Source of the DNA: a virus
Strand: one strand, 5' to 3'
DNA: 23,905 nt
IMG/VR virus record: IMGVR_UViG_3300032105_000020
Span: 1 to 23,905 of that record
How positions within the stretch are numbered: position 1 is the stretch's first letter; the number at the start of each line of letters is the position of its first letter. This document shows positions 4,096 to 23,620 of this stretch, piece after piece. A program made the position numbers and the translations under genes. The notes below the pieces were generated by a model. The model had not been told where the DNA came from, did no database searches, and saw only the letters and a program-made list of their open reading frames with translations.

Positions 4096-5462
4096 TGGAC
4101 TTTTTTGGTCACCTTTTCGCCGCCCATCCCGAACCCGAACCCGGGCGCGATACCGGCGATGATTTATGGTACAACCCCCTCGCCCTTCCCGGTGCTGCCG
4201 GCATGCCTGTCAGCGCCGAAACCATGCTTCAGGCGTCGGCCATCTTTTCCTGCCTCAACGTGCTGTCCCGCCCGCTGGCGTCCCTGCCCTTCGCTGTCTT
4301 CCTTCGCCAGGCGGACGGGTCCAAAACCCGTGTCGATGCCCACCCCCTTGCCGATATTCTCGGCAAGCAATCCAGCGTCCGCCATACGGCCTATGAATTC
4401 CGGGGCCAGATGGCGTGGGACCTGGTGCTGTGGCGTAACGCCTATGCCGAGATCATCCCCGGCCCCCGCGGCCCTGTCGACCAGCTGGTGCGCCTGGACC
4501 CCGCCAATGTCACGCTGCGCAAGTTTCCGTCCGGCGACATCGCCTTCGACATCGCCTTCGACGTGGTCGAGAACGGGCGCATGCGTCGGCTTCGGGAAGA
4601 CCAGGTCTGGCATCTGAAGGCGATGCCCTTCACCCCGGACGGTCTGTTGGGCCGTCCGGTGGCCGAAACCAACCGGCAACTGGTGTCGGCCATCCTTGCC
4701 GTGCAGGAATACTCGGCCCGGTTTTTCGCCAACGATACCAAGTCCGGCGGCGTCATCAGCATCGACCACCACTTTGATGGCAAGGAGTCCCGTAAGAATT
4801 ACCTCGACGCTTGGCGCAGGCAGCGCACCGGCGCCAACCGGCACAAGGACGCGATTATTGAGTTCAACGGTAAGTACCAGCGGTCGGTCCAGACCAACGA
4901 CGAGGCCCAGTTTATCCAAACCAAGAAGGAATCCGCCGTCGAAATCGCCTCCATCTTCAACGTGCCGCCGCACAAGATCGGCATCCTCGACAAGGCCACC
5001 TTCCGCAACATCGAACAGCAGGCCATCGACTTCGTTACCGACTCGCTGCTGCCGCATCTGGTGTGCTGGGAACAGGGCATCGGCCGCGACCTGCTGCCGT
5101 CGGGTGCCGGGCTGTTCGCCGAGTTCAATGTGCTGGGTTTGTTGCGCGGCGACATCAAGACCCGCTTCCAGGCCTTCGCCATCGCCCGCAACTGGGGTTG
5201 GTTGAGCGTCAACGACATCCGTAAGCTGGAAAACCTGAATCCCATCGGCCCCGACGGCGACGTCTACCTGCAGCCCCTCAACATGGCCCCGGCTGGCGAT
5301 CCGGCGGAGCCTTCCGGTCAGGGTGGTCGTGACGCCAAAAAGGGCAATGGCAGGGACCACGCGCCGCCGGCCGACCTTTTCGATGGCCCAGTCCCCGGCT
5401 ACGGCTACGAAGACCAGGCCCCCGACGAACCCGAAGGAGAACCCGATGGCAAAACCGATTGA
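4095..5462 (+). CDS. Portal protein, HK97 family
   Basis: The 455-residue product has the HK97 portal pattern: an early A-I-F-S-C-L-N-V-L-S-R helix, P-L-A-x-L-P, a central Y-x-E-F-R-G stretch, D-P-A-N-V, and the clip/stem region with F-N-V-P-P-H-K-I-G and N-I-E-Q-Q-A-I-D-F-V-T-D-S-L-L-P. The C-terminal ~50 residues are acidic, Gly/Pro-rich and probably flexible. Portals form a dodecameric ring at one capsid vertex, through which terminase pumps DNA and to which the connector binds. ATG at 4095 overlaps the previous stop as TGATG; a longer upstream reading frame is only an overlap with the small membrane gene. The end overlaps the protease gene by 17 bp. Confidence 0.95.
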   Translation: MDFFGHLFAAHPEPEPGRDTGDDLWYNPLALPGAAGMPVSAETMLQASAIFSCLNVLSRPLASLPFAVFLRQADGSKTRVDAHPLADILGKQSSVRHTAYEFRGQMAWDLVLWRNAYAEIIPGPRGPVDQLVRLDPANVTLRKFPSGDIAFDIAFDVVENGRMRRLREDQVWHLKAMPFTPDGLLGRPVAETNRQLVSAILAVQEYSARFFANDTKSGGVISIDHHFDGKESRKNYLDAWRRQRTGANRHKDAIIEFNGKYQRSVQTNDEAQFIQTKKESAVEIASIFNVPPHKIGILDKATFRNIEQQAIDFVTDSLLPHLVCWEQGIGRDLLPSGAGLFAEFNVLGLLRGDIKTRFQAFAIARNWGWLSVNDIRKLENLNPIGPDGDVYLQPLNMAPAGDPAEPSGQGGRDAKKGNGRDHAPPADLFDGPVPGYGYEDQAPDEPEGEPDGKTD

Positions 5463-6423
5463 CGAAATCGAAGCCGAGATTATGGTCCCCGCGCCCCTGG
5501 CCTATTCCCATGTCATCCGCGCCGTTGCCGAATCCCCGTGGGCCATTCTTCCGGAAACGTTGGCCACGATCATGGAAATCCTGTCCTTCCGCGCCATGGG
5601 TGGGCGGCTGACCGCCGAGGAAATCGAAACCCGCATCCGTGCCGAACATTACGGCCAGCCCGCCGCCGTCCCGGCCAGCGCCCGGGCCAAGTCCGGCGGC
5701 GGCACCGTCGCCATCCTCGGCCTGCGCGGAATCATCGCCCACCGGGCGTCGGCCTTCAACGACGTGTCCGCGCCACAGGGCACATCGGTCGAACGCTTCA
5801 CCCAGCTGTTCCGCGTGGCCATGAATAACGACGACGTTTCCGCCATCCTGATCGACGTGCAGGCGCCGGGCGGAAGCGTTGACGGCGTCTCCGAACTGGC
5901 CAACGAAATCCGCGCCGCCCGCGGCGGCAAGCCCATCATCGCCGTCGCCAACGCCTACGCCGCCTCGGCCGCCTACTGGATCGCGGCCGCCGCCGACGAA
6001 CTGGTGGTGACGCCGTCTGGCGAGGTCGGGTCCATCGGCATCTTTGCCGCCCACACGGAATTTTCAAAACAGGACGAAATGATCGGTCGCAAGACGACGC
6101 TGATCTCGGCCGGCAGGTTCAAGGTCGAGGGCAACCCCTTCGAGCCGCTTACCGAAGAAGCCCGCGAGGCCATCCAGGACCGCGTCGACGATCACTACGC
6201 CATGTTGGTTTCCGACATCGCCAAGGCCCGTGGCGTCAAGGCATCCGATGTCAGGTCCGGCTTCGGCCAGGGCCGCATGGTCGGTGCCAAGGAAGCCGTC
6301 GCCATGGGCATGGCCGACCGCGTCGATACCTTCGACAACACCCTTTCCCGCCTGCTTGCGGGACGTGGGCGTCCACGTGGGCGGCGCGCCGCCACGGCGG
6401 GCCGTTATTTCGACTTTGTCTAA
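5446..6423 (+). CDS. Head maturation protease, S49 (SppA-like)
   Basis: A 325-residue serine protease with the Clp/crotonase-fold features of family S49: a P-G-G-S oxyanion turn at 141-144, the probable nucleophile S174 in Y-A-A-S-A-A-Y-W, V-G-S-I-G-I at 195-199, and the probable general base K226 in G-R-F-K-V-E-G. It acts as a Ser-Lys dyad in this family. Between portal and capsid genes, its job is to trim the capsid protein N-terminus (and itself) in the prohead. ATG at 5446 has AAGGAG 7 bp upstream, inside the portal gene. HK97 itself uses a different (U35) protease; S49 versions at this position are known from other phages. The basic C-terminal tail (R-G-R-P-R-G-R-R) is notable and may help packing with capsid or DNA. 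Confidence 0.93.
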   Translation: MAKPIDEIEAEIMVPAPLAYSHVIRAVAESPWAILPETLATIMEILSFRAMGGRLTAEEIETRIRAEHYGQPAAVPASARAKSGGGTVAILGLRGIIAHRASAFNDVSAPQGTSVERFTQLFRVAMNNDDVSAILIDVQAPGGSVDGVSELANEIRAARGGKPIIAVANAYAASAAYWIAAAADELVVTPSGEVGSIGIFAAHTEFSKQDEMIGRKTTLISAGRFKVEGNPFEPLTEEAREAIQDRVDDHYAMLVSDIAKARGVKASDVRSGFGQGRMVGAKEAVAMGMADRVDTFDNTLSRLLAGRGRPRGRRAATAGRYFDFV

Positions 6424-9028: not shown

Positions 9029-9841
9029 ATGACCGAGGTCGTCGTCAACGCGCCAACGGGCTTGCCGCTCGACCTGGGGGAGGTCAAACGCCGCCTCCGG
9101 GTCGACGGCCCCGACGAGGACTTGGAAATCACCGGCCTCATCGCCGCCGCCGGGGCCTACGCCGAGGGCTTCATCTGGCGGGCGCTGCTGACGCGCACCC
9201 TCGACCTGGTGCTGGACTCCTTCCCGGCGGTCATCCGCCCGCCCAAGCCACCGCTGCGTTCGGTCACTTCCATCACCTACATCGACACCGCAGGCGCGAC
9301 GCAGACCCTGGCCGCGTCCAAGTACCAGGTCGACCTCAACACCGAACCCGGCCGCATCATGCCCGCCCATGGCGACACCTGGCCCGGAACGCGCGCCGTG
9401 TTCAACGCCGTCACCGTCCGTTACAAGACCGGCCTGTTGACGCCGTTCACCGCCGATGACGCCACCGACATCCTCGCCGCCGTCGGCCATCCTTACGCCG
9501 ATACCGATGTACTGCGCCTAAGCCATTCCGGCGCCGAGGGCGAGGCGCCGCCGGCGGGTCTGGCCTTGAATATGGATTATTACGCGCGGGACGTCGTCGC
9601 CGGGGTGTCGCTGAAGGTGGCGGCCACGTCCGGCGGCGCCGCCATCGATATCACCGGCACCGGCACCGGCACCCATTACCTGGGCATCATGCCGGAAAAC
9701 GTCCGCCTTGGCATGCTGCAGGCCATCGGCACCTGGTTAGCCAACCGCGAAACCATCGTCGTCGGCGTGTCCGTGTCGTCCCTACCGGGCGTGGCGGCGG
9801 CCGATCATCTGCTGTTCACAGAACGCAACCACCTGGGATAG
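9029..9841 (+). CDS. Head-tail connector (gp6/phiE125 gp8-like) with an inserted domain
   Basis: This 270-residue protein has the standard connector adaptor pattern: L-D-L-G-E-V-K-R-R-L-R-V at 14-25, then L-I-A-A-A-G-A-Y-A-E helix, R-P-P-K-P-P-L-R-S-V strand, V-T-V-R-Y-K-T-G at 128-135, and a C-terminal helix A-I-G-T-W-L-A-N-R-E with A-A-A-D-H-L-L. Such proteins form the ring under the portal. Between the V-R-Y-x-x-G strand and the M-P-E-N-V-R helix, which are normally only some residues apart, lies an extra ~80-residue block (about 138-219) ending A-I-D-I-T-G-T-G-T-G-T-H. A matching block occurs inside the tail-tip protein of this phage. Length is therefore well above the usual ~190. Confidence 0.85.
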   Translation: MTEVVVNAPTGLPLDLGEVKRRLRVDGPDEDLEITGLIAAAGAYAEGFIWRALLTRTLDLVLDSFPAVIRPPKPPLRSVTSITYIDTAGATQTLAASKYQVDLNTEPGRIMPAHGDTWPGTRAVFNAVTVRYKTGLLTPFTADDATDILAAVGHPYADTDVLRLSHSGAEGEAPPAGLALNMDYYARDVVAGVSLKVAATSGGAAIDITGTGTGTHYLGIMPENVRLGMLQAIGTWLANRETIVVGVSVSSLPGVAAADHLLFTERNHLG

Positions 9842-11062: not shown

Positions 11063-11785
11063 ATGTCCGCTGAAACCATTTCCGACGCCAAGCTCTACAT
11101 GGGCGAATTCGACCTGTCCGGGGCGATGAACGAAACCGCACTTCGCTATGGCGCCGAATTGAAGCGGGCGACCACCTTCGGCGACAGCGGCGAGCGCCGC
11201 CTGGCCGGGCTGCCCGATGCCGCCGTCGAGGCCAAGGGATACTGGGATTCGACCCTCGGTAAAGGCATTTTTAACGACATCGGCGTCGCCGACGTGCCGT
11301 TCAGCGTCGTCCCGCAAGGCGAGACGGAAGGCAACCGCGCCTTTCTGTTCCGCGTCGCCGCCGGCGAATACAGCCTCGGCGGCCCGGTCGGCGAGATGTT
11401 CCCGTTCTCCCTCGGCGCCGAATCGAGCGCCGGCGATCCCCTGATCCGGGGCACCCTGATGCACCGGGCGACGCGCACGGCGACCGCCAACGGCTCAGGC
11501 CGGCAGCTGGGCGCGGTCTCGGCGGCGCAGAAGCTCTACGGCGCCCTGCACGTGTTCGCCGCCTCCGGCACCACGCCGACCCTCGACGTGACGGTGCAAT
11601 CCGACGACGCGTCCGGCTTCCTGTCGGCGGTCACCCGCATGACCTTCGCCCAGAAGACCGCCATCGGGTCCGAATGGCCGGCGCCGATCGCCGGCGCCAT
11701 CACCGACGACTGGTGGCGGATCGTCTGGACCATCGGCGGCACGTCGCCCAGCTTCGACTTCGCCGTCGTCTTGGGAATCCAGTAG
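11063..11785 (+). CDS. Tail tube-like protein, long form
   Basis: A 240-residue protein whose N-terminal part (L-R-Y-G-A-E-L-K-R-A-T-T-F-G-D-S-G-E-R-R-L) matches a segment of the shorter protein encoded at 11951 (Y-S-E-E-L-K-R-A-T-S-M-G-D-K-G-E-R-R-L), showing that the two are paralogous tail-tube-fold proteins. After residue ~120 comes extra sequence (G-A-L-H-V-F-A-A-S-G-T-T-P-T-L-D-V-T-V-Q and W-W-R-I-V-W-T-I-G-G) that looks like a small beta domain. It may be the main tube protein with a surface domain or a minor tube subunit. GAGGAG lies 8 bp before the ATG, a strong site in keeping with an abundant product. Confidence 0.78.
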   Translation: MSAETISDAKLYMGEFDLSGAMNETALRYGAELKRATTFGDSGERRLAGLPDAAVEAKGYWDSTLGKGIFNDIGVADVPFSVVPQGETEGNRAFLFRVAAGEYSLGGPVGEMFPFSLGAESSAGDPLIRGTLMHRATRTATANGSGRQLGAVSAAQKLYGALHVFAASGTTPTLDVTVQSDDASGFLSAVTRMTFAQKTAIGSEWPAPIAGAITDDWWRIVWTIGGTSPSFDFAVVLGIQ

Positions 11786-11950: not shown

Positions 11951-12379
11951 ATGCCCCGAGAAGTCCTCAATGACGCCTTCGTCTCGATCAACGCCGTCGA
12001 CCTGTCCGACCACGTGGAAACGGTCGAGATGACCTATTCCGAAGAACTGAAACGCGCCACCTCCATGGGCGACAAAGGCGAACGCCGGCTGCCGAGCGGC
12101 ATCGGCGACTGGTCGCTGGCCGTCACCTTTTTCCAGGACTATGACGCGGCCAAGGTCGACGCCACCCTGTTCCCGATCGTCGGCGCGGCCCAGGTCGCCA
12201 TGAAGTTCCGCAAGTCGAAGACCGACGCCATCTCGGCCACCAACCCGGAATACCAGGGCAACGGCATGATCGAGGGCGACTTGGTCTTGGGCGGCGGCGG
12301 TGTCGGCGAAATGAACATGGCGCCGGTGACTTTTGTTTCCGCCGACGGCGTCCGCCTTTTCCGCGACACGACGCCTTAA
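11951..12379 (+). CDS. Tail tube-like protein, short form
   Basis: This 142-residue protein has the compact tail-tube pattern: D-A-F-V-S-I-N-A-V-D-L-S-D-H-V-E-T-V near the N-terminus, Y-S-E-E-L-K-R-A-T, a Y-D-A-A-K-V-D-A-T-L-F helix, and N-P-E-Y-Q-G-N-G-M-I-E-G strand followed by a final V-T-F-V-S-A-D-G. The size and pattern suit a tube subunit better than the longer paralogue upstream, and its place just before the tail-chaperone genes is where the major tail protein normally lies. Which of the two makes the tube cannot be decided from sequence alone. Confidence 0.82.
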   Translation: MPREVLNDAFVSINAVDLSDHVETVEMTYSEELKRATSMGDKGERRLPSGIGDWSLAVTFFQDYDAAKVDATLFPIVGAAQVAMKFRKSKTDAISATNPEYQGNGMIEGDLVLGGGGVGEMNMAPVTFVSADGVRLFRDTTP

Positions 12380-16850: not shown

Positions 16851-19250
16851 ATGCCGCCGGCAATCGCCGGTGCCGCCATCGCCGGCGCCTTTTCCGCTGT
16901 CGTCGGGGCCACCGCCTTCGGCCTGGGTATCGCCGGGACGGCGTTCCTGGTCGCCGGCGCCAACCTGGCCCTCGGCTTCATCACCCGGGCGATGGCCGGG
17001 AAGCCGAAGGTGCCGACGTTCCCGGATTTCAAGGTCGAGGCCCAGGACCGGGTGACGACGGCGCGCACCACGGCGGCGGGAAAAACCATGGTCCTCGGCG
17101 AGGCGCAGATCGCCGGGCCGCTGAACGCCTTCGAGTCGACGGGCACCGACAACGAGTTCCTGCACACCGCCGTCCCGCACGCCGTGCATCCGTGCGACGC
17201 GGCGACGGCGAAGTTCCTCAACGACGAGGAAATCGGCGACCAGGACGGTTCCGGCAACGTCACCACCGGGCGTTTCAAGGACCATGCCCGGTTCAACGTC
17301 CATCTCGGCGCCTTCGACCAGGCCGCCGACAGCGACATGGTGGACGAGATTCCGGGCTGGACCGCAAACGACAAGGGCGGCGGCATCACCTATTCGGCGA
17401 TCCGCAACAAGCAAAGCCAGGACGTGTGGCCGAACGGCTTCTCCAACGCCAAGGTGACCCTGCGCGGCATGCCGTGTTACGACCCGCGGGTCGCGGCGGT
17501 GGCGATCACGTCGTCGACGGCCGCCGACCCGGCGGTGTTCGCCACCACCGCCGCGCACGGGCGCTCCGTCGGCGACTACGTCTGGATCCCGGCCCACGAC
17601 GCGGCGGTGCCGACGGTCGAGAAGATGTACCAGGTCAAGACGGTGCCGACGGCGACGACCCTGACCCTGCTGGATGAGGACGGCGCCACGGTGGCGCTGA
17701 CCACGGGCGGCAGCGGCGGCGAACTGTCGCCAATGGCGTGGACCGACAATTGGACCCTGTTGGTCCATATGTACATGGCCCACCGGGCGACCCTGAACGC
17801 CAAGGACTCGGAGTTCAACTTCACCCAGATCGCCGCCGACGCCAACAAGTGCGACGAACAGGTGTCGCTGACGCCGGAAAACCGCACCTTCGCCGCCGCC
17901 CCGGCGGACGATATCCTGACCCTTGCCTCCAACGCGCCATGGCGCATCGGCGACGGCTGCACGGTAGCGACGACCGGCACCCTGCCGGCGGGCCTGGCGC
18001 CGGCGACGACGTATTACCTGATTCGGGATTCCAAGACCAAAGTGCGTTTGGCGGCGACCCTTGAGGACGCCCGGGCGCGGATCGCCATCGACATCACCGG
18101 CGCCGGCACCGACACCCACACCATTACCCGCCAGTCGCAGTTGCGGTACACCTGCAACGGCGTGGTGATCCTGGGCGCCAACCCGGTCGAGGCGCTCGAC
18201 GACCTGATGACGGCGGCGGCCGGCGTCGTCGTCGACGACGAAGGCATCTTCAAGATTTATTGTGGCGTGGCGGCGGCGTCGAGCGGCACCACCGACGAGA
18301 CGGACTTGCGCGATGCCGAGCTGGCGCCGGAGCCGCACCTGCCCTATGCCGAGACGTTCAATTCGGTGCGCGGCACCTACGTCGACCCGGACAAGTTCTA
18401 CGCCCCCGTCGACGCGCCGCCGTACCAGAATTCCACCTACGTCGCCGCCGACGGCGGCGAGGAAATCTTCCGCGACCTGGCGCTCCCGTTCACCGACTGC
18501 CCGGTCCGGGCGCAGCGGCTGTTCAAGATCGCCGTCGAGCGGGCGCGCCAGGGGGTAACGGTGATGTTCCGGGCCAAGCCGCGCAAGTTCCCGACCGCCG
18601 TCTGGGACGTCGAGGCGGTTTCCATCGACCTGCTGGGATGGGCGGCGAAGGAATTCCGCGTCATGTCGGTACGGGAAAACCCGGACCTCGGCATCGACCT
18701 GCTGTACCGCGAAGAGGCTGCCGCCGTATGGGACTGGAACCTGGGAGACGAGACGTCCCTCGACCCGGCCCCCAACTCGGGCCTGCCCGACCCGTTTACC
18801 GTCGCCAACCCGACCGGCCTGGTGGTAAGCACGGAAACGGTGATCGACGAACAGGGCGGCAAGGTCCACCGGGCGGTGATCACCTGGACCGCCCCGGCCG
18901 ACGCCAACGTCACCAAAGGCGGCGCCATCGAGGTACGGTTCAAGAAATCCGCCGACGCCAATTACGATCCGACGTTCGAGGTTTCCGGCGATAAGACCAA
19001 GGCGACGACGCCGGCGCTTGATTTGAGCGTCGATTACGACTTCGGCGCGCGCTCGCGCAACAACATCGGCATCCGCATCGTGCCCGAGACCTGGACGACC
19101 GTGACCGGCTTCACCGTCGGCGCCGCCAGCGTCGGGGCGACGGCCAGGGTCGATTACGGGCTGATCGTCAACGCGGCGGACGTCTTCGTCCGCGACGGCG
19201 GCATCGGCGAAACCGCGTCGCGGACCATCGACGACGGCACCATCGTTTAA
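16851..19250 (+). CDS. Tail tip (J-like) protein with two inserted domains and FnIII-like C-terminus
   Basis: The 799-residue product has a hydrophobic, Gly/Ala-rich N-terminus (1-45) and the tail-tip core (C-Y-D-P-R at 209-213, S-M-T-D-N-W-x-L-like at 296-304, A-N-K-C-D-E at 331-336, R-Y-T-C-N-G-V at 432-438, a long C-terminal half with V-R-E-N-P at 607-611). Two blocks interrupt the core. Residues ~214-296 read like the E1 FCCH-type insert common in phage proteins (A-A-H-G-R-S-V-G-D-Y-V, then Y-Q-V-K-T-V). Residues ~344-426 (P-A-G-L, Y-Y-L-I-R-D, A-I-D-I-T-G-A-G-T-D-T-H) match the block in the connector. A fibronectin III-like domain spans ~653-740. It binds the hub and positions the fibre. 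Confidence 0.85.
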   Translation: MPPAIAGAAIAGAFSAVVGATAFGLGIAGTAFLVAGANLALGFITRAMAGKPKVPTFPDFKVEAQDRVTTARTTAAGKTMVLGEAQIAGPLNAFESTGTDNEFLHTAVPHAVHPCDAATAKFLNDEEIGDQDGSGNVTTGRFKDHARFNVHLGAFDQAADSDMVDEIPGWTANDKGGGITYSAIRNKQSQDVWPNGFSNAKVTLRGMPCYDPRVAAVAITSSTAADPAVFATTAAHGRSVGDYVWIPAHDAAVPTVEKMYQVKTVPTATTLTLLDEDGATVALTTGGSGGELSPMAWTDNWTLLVHMYMAHRATLNAKDSEFNFTQIAADANKCDEQVSLTPENRTFAAAPADDILTLASNAPWRIGDGCTVATTGTLPAGLAPATTYYLIRDSKTKVRLAATLEDARARIAIDITGAGTDTHTITRQSQLRYTCNGVVILGANPVEALDDLMTAAAGVVVDDEGIFKIYCGVAAASSGTTDETDLRDAELAPEPHLPYAETFNSVRGTYVDPDKFYAPVDAPPYQNSTYVAADGGEEIFRDLALPFTDCPVRAQRLFKIAVERARQGVTVMFRAKPRKFPTAVWDVEAVSIDLLGWAAKEFRVMSVRENPDLGIDLLYREEAAAVWDWNLGDETSLDPAPNSGLPDPFTVANPTGLVVSTETVIDEQGGKVHRAVITWTAPADANVTKGGAIEVRFKKSADANYDPTFEVSGDKTKATTPALDLSVDYDFGARSRNNIGIRIVPETWTTVTGFTVGAASVGATARVDYGLIVNAADVFVRDGGIGETASRTIDDGTIV

Positions 19251-19260
19251 GGGAAAAGGC

Positions 19261-20235
19261 ATGAGTACGGAACGGCAAAACCGGCGCGGGACGAAAACCC
19301 AGCACAACACGTTCACCGGCGCCGTCGGCGAGGTGACCGTCGATACCACTAACAAACGCCAGGTTATCCATGACGCGCTGAAGGCCGGCGGGTTTCCGTG
19401 CCCGAACATCGACGACCTGCAGTCCGGGCGCACCGTCTACGCCCAGGCCGGCGGCACCGCCAACGCCCTGACCCTGGCCCTGGCGCCGCCGATCATCGCC
19501 CTGGTCGAGGGGCTGCGGGTCGGCTTCGAGGCGACGGCCACCAACACCGCCTCGGCGACCCTCAACGTCGACGGCAAGGGCGTCAAGACCTGTAAAAAGA
19601 ATGCCGGCGGCGACAATCTGGCCGCCGGCGATTTCGTTATCGGCGGCCATTATATGGCCGAATACGACGGCGCCAATTGGCAGATCATCGCCGGCCAGTC
19701 CGGCGGCGGCGGCGGCGTCTGGACTTTCGTGGCGACGCACACCGGATCGGGGTCTACGGTCAACATCGAGACGACGGCGCTGTTCGACGGCACCTATGAT
19801 GAAGTGTTGATCTTTGTGGAGAGACTGGAGCCGGACTCGCAGGGCAACGGCCACAGACCTCGTTGCCGGATCAAGTCCGGTGGCTCCTATAAAACAGCGA
19901 GCTACCAATCCTATCTGATCGCAGGCGAGGGCGGCATGACGGCGTTTGCCACTGACAATGCTGCCCTTCCAGGGGCTATCAGCATTGGGGCAACAATCAA
20001 TAGTCTTGATCGTTGCAGCGGTTACATCCGGATCAGAATGCCCGCCGATACGACAGAAAGAAAATTCATCCACATATCCTTCATTTCTGCGAATCTCAGC
20101 CCCCATCGATCAGTGGATGGGTGGGGTTATTGGGACGGTGGCGACGGGGCCTTGCAGGGTATTCATTTCTTCATGGTCTCCGCTGGAACCATACAGGCGT
20201 TCACCGCCCATTCCTTCGGCAAGAAGAACGCATAG
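19261..20235 (+). CDS. Tail fibre/receptor-binding protein
   Basis: A 324-residue protein following the tail-tip gene, with AAGGGAAAAGG before the ATG. The N-terminus (F-T-G-A-V-G-E-V-T-V-D-T-T, then H-D-A-L-K-A-G-G-F-P) resembles the N-terminal domain of phage fibres and of the Bordetella tropism determinant. A middle repeat-like fibre module (G-L-R-V-G-F-E-A-T-A-T-N-T-A, L-N-V-D-G-K-G) leads to a Gly-rich linker (G-G-G-G-G near residues 148-153). The last ~170 residues form a separate domain (F-V-A-T-H-T-G-S, H-F-F-M-V-S-A-G-T-I-Q) likely to be the tip that touches the host. From about 19790 onward the DNA is poorer in GC and uses different third bases, pointing to an exchanged tip. No diversity-generating repeats or reverse transcriptase are in the window. 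Confidence 0.78.
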   Translation: MSTERQNRRGTKTQHNTFTGAVGEVTVDTTNKRQVIHDALKAGGFPCPNIDDLQSGRTVYAQAGGTANALTLALAPPIIALVEGLRVGFEATATNTASATLNVDGKGVKTCKKNAGGDNLAAGDFVIGGHYMAEYDGANWQIIAGQSGGGGGVWTFVATHTGSGSTVNIETTALFDGTYDEVLIFVERLEPDSQGNGHRPRCRIKSGGSYKTASYQSYLIAGEGGMTAFATDNAALPGAISIGATINSLDRCSGYIRIRMPADTTERKFIHISFISANLSPHRSVDGWGYWDGGDGALQGIHFFMVSAGTIQAFTAHSFGKKNA

Positions 20236-21809: not shown

Positions 21810-22001
21810 TCAGCCGCGCCCTACCAGCAAGTCGCCGGCCTGGCGCATGATTTTGGCAAGCTCCGCCGGCGACCCGTCGAAAGGGTCGAGCATGACGGCC
21901 GTGCGGGCGTCCGTCGCGCCGTCGTCCATGTCCTCGACGATGGCGACGAAGCCGGGCGGATGCAGGCGCACCAGCCACTCGTTGCCGGCGGCGTCCTCGG
22001 C
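21810..22001 (-). pseudogene. C-terminal fragment of an unknown gene, fused to transposase debris
   Basis: On the minus strand the frame continues from the transposase segment as E-D-A-A-G-N-E-W-L-V-R-L-H-P-P-G-F-V-A-I-V and ends G-D-L-L-V-G-R-G at TGA (21810-21812). About 62 residues are left, without its own start. It reads as a genuine soluble coding sequence, not an IS product, but I do not recognise the family. The missing N-terminus was probably lost when the IS inserted or recombined at about 22000. Its orientation is opposite to the phage genes, so it could be host or an earlier phage gene. Confidence 0.5.
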
Positions 22002-22360
22002 GATCAGGGTCTCGGCTTCCTCGCGACTGACGCGGACCGTGCGCTTAACTCCCAGAACCGCACGGCCAGGGCTTCGATCCGCCGCAAGGACCGGCTGACG
22101 GTCGACTTGTCGGTTCGGTACAGGCAGGCCATGAAATCCTGCGTGATGGCGCACCGGTACAGGATCAACAGAACCAGCAGATGGTCCTCAAGTCCGCCCA
22201 CACCCCACGGACGCCCGGAGCGGTTCTTCGGAACCACGATCCGCTCTCGCCAATGAGGCCGCAGGCGATCAACCAACTTGCGGAACGTATCCGCCTCAAT
22301 ACCCGTCAGGGAGCGAAATTGCCGTTTGGAAATAAGCCACGCGCTGTTAAACTTCGCCAT
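22000..22360 (-). pseudogene. Truncated, frameshifted IS5-type transposase
   Basis: Minus-strand ATG at 22358-22360, with AAAGGAGG just upstream, opens an N-terminal transposase domain: I-S-K-R-Q-F-R-S-L-T-G-I, F-R-K-L-V-D-R-L-R-P, H-L-L-V-L-L-I-L-Y-R and S-T-V-S-R-S-L-R-R-I-E. This is the HTH domain of IS5-family (DDE_4-like) transposases. Near 22055 the frame breaks; the continuation V-K-R-T-V-R-V-S-R-E-E-A-E-T-L-I-A appears in another minus frame, as the intact protein would need, so a 1-bp loss is likely. At LIA the expected acidic active-site region (normally D-x-T-E-Q-P) is replaced by unrelated sequence. It is dead and lacks the catalytic domain. Confidence 0.75.
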
Positions 22361-22872: not shown

Positions 22873-22912
22873 TTCTTTATTGGCGAAAAACAACACTTCG
22901 GGGTTTTTCGAC

Positions 22913-23620
22913 ATGACCTTCGACATCGCCACGGCGCGGCTGTGCCTGAAACTTTCGGGGCTGGCCTACGAGGACGACCCGGGCCCGGCCTTGCGGGGCC
23001 TCGGGCTGCGCCTGGTCAACCGCTACGACAAGAAAGGCACCCAGGCGTTCCTGGCCACCGACGGCAAGAGGCTGTTGCTGGCCAACTGCGGCAGCAATGA
23101 GTTCATCGACTTTTTCAACGACGCGCGCTACGTCAAGACCGACTTCCGCCCGGTTGGTACGGAAGGTGGCCGCGTCCATGCCGGTTTTTATGACGCCTTC
23201 AAGGCGGTCAGGCCGGCGATCGCCAGTGACCTGAAAAAGCCGCGCCAACGGGGCAAGACCCTGATCACCACCGGCCACAGCCTCGGCGGGCCGTTGGCGA
23301 AGTACGAGGCCGTCACCTTCAAGGCCGCCGCGGTCTATGTGTTCGGCAGCCCGCGGGCCGGCAACGGCGCCTTCGCCGAGCGGCTGGAAAAGCAATGCCC
23401 GGTGTTCCGGTTCGAGAACCGCTTCGACCCGGTGACCATGGTTCCCCCCGCCACGTCGCCGATCCAGGCCTGGGTGTCGTGGCGCCAGGACCGTCCGGTG
23501 ACCCTGTACCGCCACGCCGGCGATACGGTCACCTTGTGGCGGCTGTTCCACCGGTTTTTCCGCTACGAAAAAAGCGTCGAGGAATACTTGGCATCGCTGG
23601 AACAGTTCCCCCGGCCCTAA
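22913..23620 (+). CDS. Class 3 lipase-like alpha/beta hydrolase (cargo)
   Basis: From ATG 22913 the 235-residue product shows the Lipase_3 order: V-H-A-G-F-Y-D-A-F at 88-96, G-H-S-L-G-G at 121-126 with nucleophile S123, V-F-G-S-P-R-A-G-N at 143-151, R-F-D-P-V-T-M-V-P at 170-178 with D172, and Y-R-H-A-G-D with H201 as the likely base. The usual F-R-G-T/S oxyanion turn before the helix is N-C-G-S here (58-61), so the arginine is a cysteine. There is no signal peptide, thus a cytoplasmic or lysis-released enzyme. A TTG at 22880 extends the frame but has no ribosome site. It is not a core phage gene; it may be phage cargo acting on host lipids. Confidence 0.82.
   Translation: MTFDIATARLCLKLSGLAYEDDPGPALRGLGLRLVNRYDKKGTQAFLATDGKRLLLANCGSNEFIDFFNDARYVKTDFRPVGTEGGRVHAGFYDAFKAVRPAIASDLKKPRQRGKTLITTGHSLGGPLAKYEAVTFKAAAVYVFGSPRAGNGAFAERLEKQCPVFRFENRFDPVTMVPPATSPIQAWVSWRQDRPVTLYRHAGDTVTLWRLFHRFFRYEKSVEEYLASLEQFPRP

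Follow-up and report, generated by a model that had tools for sequence, protein, structure and literature searches.

Domain shuffling at the protein level is well documented in phages (PMC10684548). Ig-like inserts are already known in head–tail adaptors and J-type hubs, and these promiscuous Ig-like or FNIII domains, such as the attachment domain of the R4C adaptor, FNIII-A of lambda J and Jersey HDII-ins3 (PMC10276861, PMC10721106, PMC13243795), are small beta domains that occur patchily between relatives. Lactococcal phages of the 936 group carry modular decorations on several virion proteins per phage, made of common 'bricks'; carbohydrate-binding inserts lie in their neck, tube and distal-tail proteins, and some of them were shown to bind host cells (PMC6669499). 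The tail-tip megatron of R4C also has a carbohydrate-binding domain (PMC10276861), and the beta-barrel of the K1F endosialidase tailspike (Pfam End_beta_barrel, PF12195), another barrel in a phage adhesion protein, binds sialic acid (PMC12632334). Hubs of the lambda gpJ and T5 pb3 family are likewise known to carry domain-sized insertions (HDII-ins).

Here we analyse a stretch of viral DNA of 23,905 nucleotides (the window; IMG/VR record IMGVR_UViG_3300032105_000020, positions 1 to 23,905), in which a head–tail connector and a tail-tip hub contain the same kind of inserted block. A preliminary description, made from the letters of the window, had proposed one roaming domain inserted in two unrelated virion proteins, and a family profile together with homologues that have no insert now strongly supports this proposal. 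The block almost certainly belongs to a large, unnamed family of ~80-residue barrels inserted in loops of tailed-phage structural proteins, and these barrels resemble the first catalytic cysteine half-domain of ubiquitin-activating enzymes (E1_FCCH, Pfam PF16190). Like the Ig-like domains, the module is a small beta domain added to an adaptor, a J-type hub and other proteins; however, those domains are Ig sandwiches, whereas the module is predicted to be an FCCH-like barrel. The sites of insertion also differ, since the R4C domain is N-terminal and lambda FNIII-A occupies residues 72-215.

Results

The connector gene (9029..9841, plus strand) encodes 270 amino acids and carries one module. The part preceding the insert matches TIGR02215 (E 5.4e-13) and phrog_442 (E 3.3e-18), and its score of 49.1 bits against an NCBIfam cut-off of 39 identifies it as a TIGR02215, or HK97 gp6-type, protein. 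The preliminary description had placed a block of ~80 residues between a V-R-Y-x-x-G strand and the C-terminal helix, and this is what we see: a module that we call type B lies at about residues 137-219 (approximately 9437..9685, plus strand), between VRYKTG and the helix beginning MPENVRLGM. Connectors sampled from phages of Bradyrhizobium, Roseibium, Rhizobium, Sinorhizobium, Caulobacter, Marinobacter, Microcystis, Nostoc and others align with the window protein on both flanks of the insert, and none of the 13 has the block; their V-x-Y-x-x-G strand runs directly into the C-terminal helix. The outcome named in advance as fatal to the insert idea, a block that all close connector homologues contain as part of the core fold, is hence not what these homologues show. 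Among 15 connectors compared (that of the window and 14 others), the module was found only in the window and, at the identical site, in an environmental phage (L109). In addition, the corresponding loop of a distant environmental connector (L130) contains it.

The second carrier (16851..19250, plus strand) is a tail-tip hub protein of 799 amino acids with two modules. It matches phrog_5616 (E 1.6e-61), and tblastn matched 343 phage records, many of them labelled central tail fiber J. Its family profile finds a T5-type baseplate hub (8hqz, E 1.7e-28) and pb3 (7zhj, E 1.3e-23) in the PDB, so that sequence homology across the hub domains assigns it to the lambda J/T5 pb3 type. The type B module of the hub occupies residues 346-428 (17886..18134, plus strand; module profile E 2.7e-25) and interrupts the protein between CDEQV and RYTCNG, as originally described. 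T5-type hubs have only ~31 residues (T5-type residues 496-526) between the corresponding flanking points. Both inserts of the window hub are missing from all four relatives CRP-811, CRP-831, Pavpe01 and Ec1, whereas module B is present in an environmental hub (L010) that is 54% identical. With 13 of 13 connector homologues and four hub relatives without it, the module behaves as a removable insertion in both carriers. Among the matches listed, about 10 environmental hubs have module B exactly between CDExV and RYTCNG, and two hubs (L039 and L050) have two tandem copies at this site. A further J-type hub (L102:1-2337, minus strand) carries a pair of modules at the usual site; a segment of ~215 residues that looks like a LamG/concanavalin-type domain splits the second one, so that one insert lies inside another.

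The other hub insert, overlooked in the preliminary description, is an E1_FCCH-like module of type A at about residues 214-294 (17490..17732, plus strand), directly after a conserved YDPR; L010 has it, and the four insert-free hubs do not. The window module A itself has no match to Pfam E1_FCCH, but family members found through it match this Pfam family above the cut-off (4e-12 to 1.5e-15). Comparison of the A and B families by hhalign gave a probability of 95%, with 0.4% for a reversed control and 5% when the two hub sequences alone were compared. In a joint alignment of both families, type-A rows were aligned onto module B. The type A sequences had been gathered with a pattern common to both families. 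Owing to this shared pattern and to the 5% obtained for the two hub copies alone, common ancestry of modules A and B is judged from sequence as likely rather than certain.

Several independent comparisons indicate that the connector and hub blocks of type B are the same module. Their pairwise alignment scores 81, a value that none of 2,000 shuffles reached (at most 60). Of the ORFs of the window, a profile built from 97 environmental-phage copies, with both window copies excluded, matches those of the hub (E 2.7e-25) and the connector (E 1.2e-16) and no others, and thus assigns both to the family. When the columns of the conserved GTGTHT tail motif were removed, the hub (2.7e-19) and the connector (1.3e-10) were still found, and no other ORF rose above the threshold. 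Of the shared features named earlier, DIL, PAGL, YY and the ending AIDITGxGTxTH hold for both blocks, and the strand V-x-L-x-x-A-A-T does not, since the tail-tip protein reads KVRLAATL.

Two other origins of this likeness have to be weighed against membership in one phage-wide family. A, T, G and D are abundant in both blocks, and no match came from a consensus query, perhaps because the low-complexity filter of BLAST hides such blocks; a T/G/A-rich, low-complexity resemblance by chance or convergence might be imagined, but the shuffle test, the independent profile E-values, the position-specific conservation and the confident shared fold family leave it practically no room. A recent duplication or gene conversion within the genome would be suggested by the DNA at 9641..9675 and 18084..18118 (both plus strand), which encodes the conserved AIDITGxGTxTH end and differs, as reported, at only 3 of 35 positions. 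Given the two peptides and the codon usage of this phage, about 6.9 +/- 1.6 mismatches are expected in such a stretch, and three or fewer occurred in 1.4% of simulations (P 0.014, for a stretch picked post hoc because it matched). Since this excess over the codon-usage expectation is small, the 32 identical bases are weak evidence of recent copying; moreover, the genome is GC-rich and no part of the module is more conserved than the one they encode. The two window copies as wholes are 36% identical in amino acids, and among 147 other copies listed, the hub module takes 72nd place in nearness to the connector module, and the connector module 100th place in nearness to the hub module. Among the copies listed, the hub module is nearest to that of the L010 hub (54%) and the connector module to one in a protein with a tail-terminator match (L082, 51%). 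We rejected recent duplication, which appears very improbable, on the identity and these ranks, and the close link between the window copies implied by the preliminary description is likewise not supported, each copy having at least 70 nearer relatives elsewhere. Because of the low identity and the many nearer relatives in other phages, the sequences point, with good confidence, to two copies of a promiscuous phage-wide module that were acquired separately or diverged long ago.

To delimit the family, IMG/VR was scanned for DNA encoding the motif D-[IVL]-T-x-x-G-T-G-T-H-T. At least 120 stretches were found, nearly all of which encode the same ~80-residue unit in ORFs of very different lengths; as loci were collected by their C-terminal motif, the sample is biased to copies that retain it. 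The module occurs in at least 134 ORFs, at least 19 of which have two or more copies, and even copies that have diverged widely retain the fold motif. Among the matches listed, 84 non-redundant carriers were classified by PHROGs, Pfam and NCBIfam. Recognised families comprise J-type hubs and head–tail adaptors (phrog_442, phrog_40, SU10_adaptor, Gp36 and YqbG), and also sheath, major tail, distal tail, nozzle, neck terminator, tail completion and HK97 capsid proteins. Named examples are a putative tail tube protein of Sphingomonas phage MMDA13, a tail sheath of a Rhizobium Cuauhnahuacvirus phage, minor tail proteins of Microbacterium phages, and fibres and baseplate wedges of cyanophages. In L109, tandem tail-tube paralogues (4593-5027 and 5038-5766, minus strand), one with and one without the module, form a natural pair. 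Long ORFs with four or five copies each were seen in L098 (4538-9580, minus strand), L125 (6000-9521, plus strand) and L004 (2-5188, plus strand).

No Pfam family detects either window copy of type B, and PHROGs gave partial matches to families of unknown, tail-fibre and baseplate-wedge proteins. The Pfam families of Ig type (Big_2, I-set and FN3) did not match the module. One tail-tube copy, a six-copy profile and a 62-copy profile, searched by sequence against the PDB, gave nothing or chance matches, and a consensus query found no match by tblastn, probably because of low-complexity masking. At sequence level, PF16190 is matched above cut-off only by the other type-A relatives, and not by window module A, either window module B or five other type-B copies. 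The K1F barrel family PF12195 is weakly matched by two type-A relatives (0.009 and 0.03, below the Pfam cut-off) and not by type B. The motif PAGL...YYV...DITxxGTGTHT was seen in phage sequences only, the collections profiled being those of phages.

The fold was approached by predicting structures of both carriers, as had been suggested. For hub residues 336-432, AF2 with 62 aligned sequences, the connector copy among them, reached a pLDDT of 91.5 and a pTM of 0.79; the whole connector, modelled without relatives, reached a pLDDT of 34.7. As only the hub copy could be modelled, that the connector copy folds likewise rests on profile homology. The model of hub module B is an all-beta small barrel with one short helix, in which the first and last strands are long. 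Its best 18 fold matches in the PDB are all E1 enzymes (Uba1/Uba6 chains; TM 0.60-0.65, probability 1.00), so the predicted barrel is superposable on the FCCH domain. These matches are consistent, but the best E is 0.016 and none reaches 0.001, and the isolated FCCH domain (2v31) stands at rank 46. At rank 19 comes the FCWL1 adaptor (9jlf_E; probability 0.92, TM 0.48), which at this rank is no more than a lead to a solved example of the module. A library of viral structures gave matches to fibres, spikes and cyanophage baseplate wedges, the best being an unnamed protein at E 4e-10.

Discussion

The likeness to FCCH is one of predicted fold and implies no E1 chemistry for the module. Taken as a whole, the account that we consider probable is of a compact, self-contained plug-in unit, which for this reason may be tolerated in exposed loops, would spread among phages by recombination, and would be retained for the weak, repeated contacts that it makes with glycans of the host surface. 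Adaptors form 12-membered rings (PMC10276861), and T5 pb3, a homologue of the carrier hub, is a trimer at the tip (PMC10038345). If the stoichiometry of these related phages applies, 12 connector subunits and three hub subunits would display about 12 copies at the neck and 3 + 3 at the tip. The last element of the account, accessory binding of glycans or of the host surface, is a role of which we are less than half convinced. The preliminary description had suggested a surface domain, perhaps for decoration or adhesion, which would agree with part of the precedents. The binding role is suggested by analogy with the 936 phages, whose carbohydrate-binding modules belong to another domain family and bind by experiment, with the carbohydrate-binding domain of the R4C megatron, and with the sialic-acid-binding K1F barrel, whose Pfam family the two type-A relatives weakly match. 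The R4C authors consider an adaptor domain adjoining the head unlikely to act in adsorption (PMC10276861), which counts against it.

Two alternatives to surface binding deserve consideration. The inserts may be local braces or spacers, the connector barrel packing on capsid or portal and stabilising the neck, the hub barrel packing on neighbouring subunits and holding the tip closed as other hub insertion domains do. In R4C, the Ig-like attachment domain of the adaptor touches the capsid, and stabilisation is the role preferred by the authors of that structure (PMC10276861); in lambda and T5, insertions of the hub line the tube or shut it, and they move when it opens (PMC11101478, PMC10038345); and the hub insertion site is fixed across diverse phages. 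However, close relatives assemble without the module, and its presence in proteins with quite different neighbours, as well as in tandem copies at one site, is hard to fit to one packing role; for neck and tip together, we regard bracing as possible but rather unlikely. Recurrence in tolerant loops, many unrelated carriers, patchiness between relatives and the tandem tube pair with and without the module would equally be expected of effectively neutral passengers that are tolerated because they fold by themselves and leave the core fold intact. Conservation of the fold motif across widely diverged copies, and several hub lineages that keep the module at one site, suggest maintenance instead, and purely neutral carriage seems improbable. 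We therefore retain the plug-in module with host-surface contacts as the working account.

A full-text search of open-access papers turned up no account of FCCH-type modules in virions, and we found no literature report of an FCCH-like barrel in lambda or T5 hubs. A bolder reading, to which we give little credence, is that barrels of the FCCH type make up a major class of mobile virion domains not described before, as promiscuous as Ig-like domains and spread over capsid, neck, hub and fibres, and that they are related to the eukaryotic E1 FCCH by ancestry instead of chance likeness. That phages exchange Ig-like and sugar-binding domains between particle proteins is known, and here a second fold appears to be exchanged on a large scale. 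The module reaches the head–tail adaptor, where the role of added domains is disputed, and with a profile of it a domain overlooked by Pfam could be annotated. Moreover, natural pairs with and without it, among connectors and in the tandem tube genes of L109, make its function directly testable.

Neighbouring genes of the window add further observations. Two adjacent genes in tail-tube position (11063-11785 and 11951-12379) have a common stretch, ELKRAT-x-x-GD-x-GERRL, with ~100 extra C-terminal residues in the larger product; neither matches Pfam. The gene after the hub (19261-20235) begins with a Major tropism determinant domain (PF18454, E 3.4e-10), and on account of this N-terminal domain its product is probably a tip-attached receptor-binding protein. 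Two overlapping ORFs in different frames (21810-22360, minus strand) look like pieces of an IS5-type transposase and may be the remains of an insertion element; the contig may cover part of a prophage. Near the contig end, an ORF at 22880-23620 encodes TGHSLGGPLA, a motif characteristic of class 3 lipases.
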